This document shows, in pieces, positions 9,039 through 9,657 of a stretch of DNA of 64,000 nt. Source of the stretch: Candidatus Coatesiibacteriota bacterium (lineage in GTDB: Bacteria; RBG-13-66-14; B26-G2; JAUVZD01); NCBI GenBank assembly GCA_030602715.1, contig JAUVZD010000004.1, positions 124,001 through 188,000 on the forward strand, written 5' to 3'. The position numbers and the translations under genes were made by a program. Position 1 is the first letter of the stretch. Every line of letters begins with the position of its first letter. The notes beneath the pieces are model-generated. The model had not been told where the DNA came from and ran no database searches. It saw only the letters and a list, made by a program, of their open reading frames with translations.

Positions 9039-9126
9039 TGGCGGAGAGGGAGGGATTCGAACCCCCGGAAGGCAAGCCTTCAACGGTTTTCGAGACCGCC
9101 CCGTTCAACCGCTCCGGCACCTCTCC
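9039..9126 (-). tRNA. tRNA-Ser (anticodon CGA)
   Basis: An 88-base type II tRNA read leftward. Acceptor strands GGAGAGG (9126-9120) and CCTCTCC (9049-9043) pair fully. Discriminator G and an encoded CCA follow (9042-9039). The anticodon arm is CGGT-CTCGAAA-ACCG, giving CGA for UCG codons. A long variable arm (GGCTTGCC type) and the T loop GGTTCGAATCC are present. The 5' end is fused without spacer to the end of a GIY-YIG reading frame that runs through the tRNA. Confidence 0.95.
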
Positions 9127-9386
9127 GGCATTGTTTATCTATCAGTTTCTTAAAAGCATTCCCACCCTTGTAACTCTTTATCTGTCTCTCTCTTCTATAC
9201 GCTTCCTTTCGGCTATTATATTCCTCGCTGTATATTACCACCCAGGGTATCCCCGATTTCGTAGATCTCGTCTTCCCACAATTATGCTGGGCTAATCTCA
9301 CTTCTATATCTTGACACATCCCGACATCCCCGCCAGGAGCGGGGTCTTCCTGTCTTCTCGCTCTGGATTATATATACTTTATATAC
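9080..9386 (-). pseudogene. GIY-YIG endonuclease, frameshifted, running into tRNA-Ser
   Basis: The C-terminal frame reads QDIEVRLAQHN, then GIPWVVIYSEEYNSRKEA, then RRERQIKSYKGGNAFKK, the pattern of the small YhbQ/UPF0213 GIY-YIG nuclease family. The N-terminal signature VYKVYIIQSEKTGR is present but in another frame. Exactly at the break lies a GC palindrome (9328-9344), and no normal start codon precedes the signature. The frame also lacks its own stop: it continues through the 5' half of tRNA-Ser to 9080. I read it as a dead copy of a small mobile-like nuclease gene abutting the tRNA. Confidence 0.7.
9328..9344. repeat. GC palindrome inside GIY-YIG remnant
   Basis: CCCCGC-CAGGA-GCGGGG. 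It belongs to the same family as the palindromes at 9468-9512, 9625-9641 and 53595-53611 (CCCCGCC-NNN-GGCGGGG) and sits where the GIY-YIG frame breaks. Confidence 0.6.
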
Positions 9387-9454
9387 CTCTCCTGCCAAAC
9401 CTATCCTTTCCTGGAAATTTTACCTTAAAGGTGAAAAAAGTTCTATCTGTATCC

Positions 9455-9566
9455 GCGGAGAGGGAGGCCCCGCCTTGGCCCCGCCTTTGGCCCCGCCTTT
9501 GGCGGGGCGGGGGCACCTCTCCGATATTGTTTATCTATCAGTTTCTTAAAAGCACTCCCGCCCTTT
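9455..9566 (-). pseudogene. Decayed second copy of tRNA-Ser / GIY-YIG junction
   Basis: 9455-9467 equals the 3' end of the intact tRNA-Ser (9041-9053). 9513-9566 matches 9117-9170 with only a few changes; that segment covers the tRNA 5' end and the last codons of the GIY-YIG gene (KGGSAFKKLIDKQ in this copy). The whole tRNA interior between them is replaced by a run of GC palindromes (9468-9512) containing CCCCGCC-TTT-GGCGGGG. It cannot fold as a tRNA. Confidence 0.65.
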
Positions 9567-9597
9567 TATATTGCCGAGTAACCCCTTGAGACACAAT

Positions 9598-9657
9598 GCC
9601 TCAACGGTTTTCTCCCGCCTTTGGCCCCGCCAAAGGCGGGGCGGGAGCACCTCTCCG
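9598..9657 (-). pseudogene. Decayed third tRNA-Ser fragment with palindrome
   Basis: 9598-9614 resembles the anticodon-arm region of tRNA-Ser, and 9647-9657 equals the tRNA 5' end (GCACCTCTCCG on this strand). The D-arm region between them is replaced by a nested palindrome: outer CCCGCC/GGCGGG at 614-619 and 640-645 of the 9-kb block, inner CCCCGCC-AAA-GGCGGGG at 9625-9641. No GIY-YIG sequence follows this copy. Confidence 0.55.

Follow-up and report, generated by a model that had tools for sequence, protein, structure and literature searches.

A broken GIY-YIG gene between tRNA-Ser(CGA) and relics of that tRNA: a probable decayed tRNA-homing unit with a separate hairpin parasite

Within a 64,000-nucleotide stretch of DNA from Candidatus Coatesiibacteriota bacterium (the window), an intact serine tRNA gene is joined to a broken GIY-YIG gene and to pieces of the same tRNA which are filled with GC palindromes. 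The question raised by this locus is whether tRNA, nuclease gene and palindromes belong to one mobile unit, to more than one, or to none. The explanation considered best, and probable, is that a widespread SegB-like tRNA-homing GIY-YIG unit is present here as a copy which has decayed and been repeated in tandem, and to which an independent hairpin parasite was added.

The tRNA-Ser(CGA) locus of the window

Read along the minus strand from 9656 to 9039, the locus comprises relic B, a second GIY-YIG 3' tail, relic A, the broken GIY-YIG gene and the intact tRNA-Ser(CGA). In the order of their coordinates its parts are:

9039..9126, minus strand: intact tRNA-Ser(CGA) (ARAGORN; Rfam RF00005, 53.8 bits, gathering score 29)
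9134..9316, minus strand: GIY-YIG pseudogene, C-terminal 61 codons (CQDIEVRL...NAFKKLIDK; PF01541 E=6e-9; profile match)
9328..9344, no strand: GC hairpin CCCCGC-TCCTG-GCGGGG, in place of the YIG half of the active-site motif (sequence)
9345..9386, minus strand: GIY-YIG N-terminal remnant VYKVYIIQSEKTGR, in a different reading frame (hand reading; fits the N-terminal consensus of alignment A1)
9455..9467, minus strand: relic A, tRNA-Ser 3' end CCTCCCTCTCCGC (13/13 identical to 9041-9053)
9468..9512, no strand: nested CCCCGCC palindromes within relic A (sequence and repeat analysis)
9513..9522, minus strand: relic A, tRNA-Ser nt 1-10 (part of repeat D1)
9523..9568, minus strand: second GIY-YIG 3' tail, joined to relic A (91% identity to 9116-9172)
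9598..9612, minus strand: relic B, tRNA-Ser anticodon loop and stem GAAAACCGTTGAGGC (repeat D5; alignment)
9613..9646, no strand: nested palindrome within relic B, which stops at the boundary of the anticodon, 34|35 or 35|36 (repeat analysis; alignment)
9647..9656, minus strand: relic B, tRNA-Ser nt 1-10 (sequence and repeat D2)

The first-pass annotation had described an intact tRNA-Ser(CGA) joined to a broken GIY-YIG frame, a reading which ARAGORN, Rfam and PF01541 bear out: the C-terminal piece matches the family profile with 97 bits (model positions 17-80), and its frame has its 3' end 7 nt ahead of tRNA-Ser nucleotide 1, reading on into the tRNA. As the N-terminus lies in another frame and the hairpin at 9328-9344 occupies the position of the YIG, which is lost in the window copy, this copy is a pseudogene, in agreement with the earlier statement that the frame breaks at a further palindrome. 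Likewise, the two partial tRNA-Ser copies said to have GC palindromes as their interiors were recovered as relic A, which extends from 9455 to 9522 and keeps tRNA-Ser nt 1-10 plus the 3' end, and as relic B (9598-9656), which keeps nt 1-10 together with an anticodon-loop and stem piece, GAAAACCGTTGA; in both, nested CCCCGCC..GGCGGGG palindromes fill the interior. The repeated junction, previously given as 9117-9170 and 9513-9566 and including the GIY-YIG 3' end, could be extended to 57 nt (9116-9172 versus 9512-9568, 91% identical), and the second GIY-YIG tail reaches a score of 63, compared with shuffled flanks that never reach 36.

A single good match to tRNA-Ser(CGA) exists in the genome of the window, the sole copy detected there, and the surviving intact tRNA is therefore probably needed by the host. 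In most relatives from the same phylum (L297-L308), tRNA-Ser(GGA) trails tRNA-Ser(CGA) on the same strand at a distance of ~30-560 nt; the tRNA-Ser(CGA) of the window stands alone, as if an ancestral Ser(CGA)-Ser(GGA) pair had been broken. A group I intron with a GIY-YIG ORF was considered and rejected, as the Rfam scan of the window matched tRNA alone and no intron RNA core.

GIY-YIG genes, tRNA relics and empty sites in other bacteria

A first contig scan, for which the 61-residue GIY-YIG piece served as query and tRNA sequence was excluded, turned up 25 relatives in Patescibacteria, Omnitrophota, Ignavibacteria, Bacteroidales, Marinimicrobia and others, most of them with a tRNA directly behind the gene. 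Profile searches covered the 25 source genomes, 380 Patescibacteria and 384 Omnitrophota (the phyla of L053 and L061, respectively), and 145 small GIY-YIG ORFs (Patescibacteria, Omnitrophota, Bacteroidota and others) were gathered on protein similarity alone. With tRNAs and relics defined by ARAGORN and alignment thresholds, genomes that are mostly metagenome-assembled and host relatedness partly controlled, 83 of the 145 were found to lie directly before a same-strand tRNA (start at -25 to +130 nt from the projected GIY-YIG 3' end), which is the arrangement of a stand-alone homing nuclease and its target gene, the tRNA being the presumed target here. The tRNA starts within 60 nt in 78 of these 83, and an opposite-strand tRNA in the range of -25 to +130 nt was found for 0/145 ORFs; the chance level, roughly estimated from ~45 tRNAs per Mb, is well under 1%. 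Linkage amounts to 40/48 among the closest ORFs (score of 95 or more), comprises 17 tRNA species and reaches past the KSYKGG group into more divergent small GIY-YIG proteins. Two groups count against the best explanation: 26/145 ORFs follow closely behind a tRNA of the same strand and tend to cluster on the tree (8 changes versus at least 14 when shuffled), and 36/145 have no tRNA nearby. A plasmid search for the family gave no match, a phage search gave only distant GIY-YIG proteins of Rhizobium phages, and the literature, subscription papers aside, yielded no account of GIY-YIG units that abut tRNAs on the chromosomes of bacteria.

Membership of the family in the GIY-YIG superfamily (PF01541) is documented by an E-value of 2.5e-17 for its members and by the invariant residues R26, H30 and E50. 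The protein is a free-standing single domain of ~80 aa, and its predicted fold (pLDDT 95.7) is closest to UPF0213 (BH0048, PDB 1zg2, E=2e-4) and Slx1 (TM about 0.70-0.75), rather than to I-TevI; 1zg2 was matched by sequence as well. As there is no separate DNA-binding domain and the fold is nearest to UPF0213 and Slx1, sequence-specific homing is not obvious, which again counts against the best explanation, and the nuclease may recognise DNA shape rather than sequence.

Ahead of the GIY-YIG gene, a relic of the same tRNA was identified at 58/82 distinct loci, compared with 0/82 when flanks were shuffled, and 46/58 relics start at tRNA nt 1; the filled site therefore consists of a tRNA 5' part, the GIY-YIG gene and a whole tRNA. 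The mirror layout, in which the intact tRNA precedes the GIY-YIG gene and the relic follows it, occurs in L052/L091 and L117. Interrupted relics make up 49 of the 58, the insertion almost always being a GC hairpin or double hairpin, whereby in the alignment tRNA letters are almost always not lost and the flanks are usually contiguous; at L052, L062 and L076 the anticodon arm itself is replaced. The acceptor 5' strands of relic and intact tRNA are alike (at most one mismatch) at 47/56 loci, hence the intact tRNA need not be foreign in most loci, another point against the best explanation, and they differ by at least two letters at 9/56. One example is L266, where the relic carries the GTCCCCA allele and the intact tRNA the GACCCCG allele, the latter native in relatives, L273 among them. 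Differences of this kind indicate that a tRNA is sometimes imported with the unit, though not as a rule, and the idea of a unit that always imports a foreign tRNA was rejected on this count.

Exact repetition of the tail and tRNA junction is uncommon, being found in the window and L053/L078 among the 83 loci (2/83) and by inspection also in L289, and it was rejected as a general hallmark. The tRNA-linked copies with conserved junctions, named on first reading as what would support a mobile unit, are many and cross phyla; the exact 54-base repeat is uncommon among them. In L289 (genome G742), an intact tRNA-Glu is preceded by two consecutive units, each starting with a GIY-YIG tail and continuing with tRNA sequence that a double hairpin splits into nt 1-13 and nt 14 onward.

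Presence and absence at a conserved site, as known from homing endonucleases, were observed behind gyrA, which in Omnitrophota commonly has tRNA-Glu as its next gene. Among 30 gyrA-tRNAGlu loci, 10 are plainly empty, their tRNA starting 5-12 nt past the stop codon of gyrA, and another 5 hold relic, GIY-YIG gene and intact tRNA-Glu; L277 is decayed, and L278 holds a short relic piece and a hairpin without GIY-YIG. The stop-codon rule assigned no class to the other loci and failed to register L289, which on inspection is filled. Together with the many linked copies across phyla, the empty sites make the initial proposal of a small mobile unit that brings a GIY-YIG gene to the 5' end of a tRNA a good description. 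A GIY-YIG gene beside tRNA-Ser(CGA) was found in 0/12 phylum relatives of the window, the synteny of these loci being unproven. No near-identical strain pair with and without the unit was found, which counts against the best explanation in that neither the precise ends of the unit nor its arrival by one insertion are proven. From host to host, GIY-YIG lineages remain faithful to their tRNA species (46 changes versus at least 53 in 200 within-host shuffles); the tree comprises 79 columns only, hence most of its forks are unresolved. The window gene groups (weak support) with the Patescibacteria tRNA-Ser units L105 and L089, which suggests that the window unit arrived laterally.

GC hairpins inside and outside tRNA relics

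Three palindromes are present in the window versus 0.01 expected, and 97 in its genome versus 7 for the reversed pattern. Those inspected genome-wide lie mostly in ordinary intergenic, terminator-like or coding contexts away from tRNAs, which corrects the first reading. One 32-kb stretch (contig C4:136977-168673) holds a large share of the listed CCCCGCC palindromes.

The palindromes of the window are simpler nested forms, and the strict double-hairpin pattern, YCCCGCC..GGCGGGR followed by YCCCGC..GCGGGR, has 0 matches in the genome of the window (G000). It was identified in 14/20 genomes versus 0/20 for the reversed control, and within the Omnitrophota in 84/384 genomes versus a single reversed-control match. 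Consisting of two adjacent GC-rich hairpins and being dispersed and sporadic, these sequences have the features of double-hairpin elements, the window palindromes lying outside the strict pattern. Insertion sites within tRNAs (canonical numbering) are 35|36 (19 cases), 12|13 (11, plus 6 one base off), 56|57 (9, plus 2 at 55|56) and about 21|22, in a tally which pools relic insertions with pattern-found double hairpins, most of them away from GIY-YIG, and in which a one-base ambiguity is possible. In the relics of L103, L178, L183 and L097, the 20-nt palindrome CCTGCCTGCCGGCAGGCAGG, or one near to it, replaces the CCCGCC hairpins at about 21|22.

The survey of double hairpins comprised 66 copies, taken from 12 genomes and from the first places of further genomes. 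An intact tRNA lies no more than 700 nt away in 26/66, and the copies at most 90 nt away are mostly inside a tRNA fragment; a GIY-YIG gene within 700 nt was found for only 6/66. Copies outside tRNAs show a target preference TTK|MAA (T 0.68, T 0.76 and T/G 0.57/0.27 at -3, -2 and -1), which resembles the T-loop TTC|RAA and many anticodon loops, and the double hairpins insert cleanly, with neither loss nor duplication of the target. As hairpins without GIY-YIG or tRNA are found at the same TTK|MAA-like targets, they are best seen as an independent element with tRNA loops among its targets, that is, as an independent parasite decorating dead tRNA copies. Of the two roles proposed for the palindromes at the outset, that of a second parasite is accordingly supported by clean insertion and shared targets away from GIY-YIG genes and tRNAs, but that of an end structure of the GIY-YIG unit was rejected, given that the relic tRNA resumes after the hairpin, ahead of the GIY-YIG start, and that hairpins occur alone. 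Entry into the centre of any hairpin was rejected as a rule of insertion, as flank complementarity of non-tRNA copies scarcely exceeds that of shuffled sequence (3.3 versus 2.9) and the TTK|MAA preference explains the sites better. At L216, L217, L226, L229, L232 and similar loci, tRNA fragments with a T-loop double hairpin (GTTC|RA) have an intact tRNA 13-63 nt away and no GIY-YIG gene; such fragments are possibly non-autonomous relatives of the GIY-YIG unit.

Explanations for the locus and its relation to known systems

According to the preferred explanation, the unit would be a free-standing single-domain GIY-YIG gene, located inside or directly before a tRNA gene and expressed from the tRNA transcript. 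We infer that its nuclease cuts tRNA genes in SegB-like homing, whereupon repair would copy the GIY-YIG gene across the break with the tRNA sequence on both sides serving as homology arms. The filled site would thereby come to hold a dead relic of the tRNA 5' part, the GIY-YIG gene and an intact tRNA of the same species, the host keeping one working tRNA. Separate GC double hairpins would enter TTK|MAA-like sites, which by chance are present in tRNA loops, and would persist in the relic, which is redundant; the GIY-YIG gene of the window was itself killed by a palindrome.

A different division of roles is that GIY-YIG gene and GC hairpins form one system like RAYT/REP, in which the nuclease mobilises the hairpins and the gene travels along. 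Hairpins do adjoin most tRNA-linked GIY-YIG genes having a relic, and in Omnitrophota double hairpins occur in 22/28 genomes with a strong GIY-YIG versus 62/356 others (p=3e-11, host relatedness uncorrected), an association still at p=2e-4 after subtracting two hairpins per GIY genome; in addition, a Y1 (HUH) transposase (PF01797), as REP/RAYT systems have, is absent from the window's genome, the genome to which this finding refers and for which RAYT/REP was rejected. The scarcity of GIY-YIG genes near the 66 surveyed double hairpins, the presence of double hairpins also in genomes without a strong GIY-YIG, and the genome of the window, which combines its many simple palindromes with one broken tRNA-linked GIY-YIG, render this single system unlikely. 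Rather unlikely, too, is a tRNA gene drive, in which the nuclease would cut at 12|13, 35|36 and 56|57, the hairpins would be scars or riders at these cuts, and the native tRNA would be replaced such that the host depends on the tRNA of the unit.

Mobility might also be dispensed with altogether, by assuming a resident and inherited GIY-YIG gene beside tRNAs, relics formed by slippage or tandem duplication, and hairpins gathering in useless DNA. The usual likeness of relic and intact tRNA fits this assumption, as do tandem arrays of tail and tRNA pieces (L289), but the empty and filled gyrA-tRNAGlu sites inside one phylum, the 17 tRNA species and the fidelity to tRNA species across hosts of distant phyla make it improbable. 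Finally, an assembly artefact is conceivable in that the window's genome comes in 18 contigs and short repeats can misassemble; as the same architecture recurs with different sequences in dozens of independent assemblies, some contigs exceeding 1 Mb, it is regarded as highly improbable. Should the explanation by tRNA homing hold true, small GIY-YIG genes in many uncultured bacteria would be tRNA-homing selfish genes for which conserved tRNA sequence provides universal homology arms, and this use of tRNA sequence would explain both the cross-phylum spread and the tRNA-derived tails ending such reading frames.

The closest known counterpart in behaviour is phage T6 SegB, a GIY-YIG enzyme of the free-standing kind which cuts inside tRNA genes at the motif RAWTSGAAC, corresponding to the T-loop on the other strand; segB adjoins tRNAs in many phages and drives tandem amplification of tRNA and segB via microhomology between segB 3' end and tRNA 5' end (PMC13096335). 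With SegB and related GIY-YIG proteins of T-even and other phages, the bacterial unit shares the free-standing gene beside tRNAs of many isotypes, the microhomology of nuclease 3' end and tRNA 5' end, and the tandem repetition of tail and tRNA 5' end (window, L053/L078 and L289). In contrast to SegB, whose cleavage motif is known, it is chromosomal and encodes a single domain of 80 residues; its gene lies right against one tRNA or overlaps it, and a hairpin-bearing relic of that tRNA accompanies it. UPF0213 and other small GIY-YIG proteins (BH0048, PDB 1zg2) and Slx1 have the same fold, but the records consulted for them hold no tRNA linkage, and Slx1 is a structure-selective nuclease with extra domains. 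The hairpins resemble REP/BIME sequences with their RAYT transposases in being dispersed paired palindromes. They also resemble the double-hairpin elements and GC clusters of fungal and yeast mitochondria, which are short, dispersed, GC-rich palindromes without ORF whose presence/absence pattern suggests mobility, the yeast GC clusters being flanked by AG or ACT repeats (PMC4478555); no sequence homology is claimed. Unlike these, the bacterial hairpins lack target duplication, prefer TTK|MAA and often reside in tRNA relics, and they offer a comparative system for the long-unexplained mobility of the mitochondrial GC hairpin elements.
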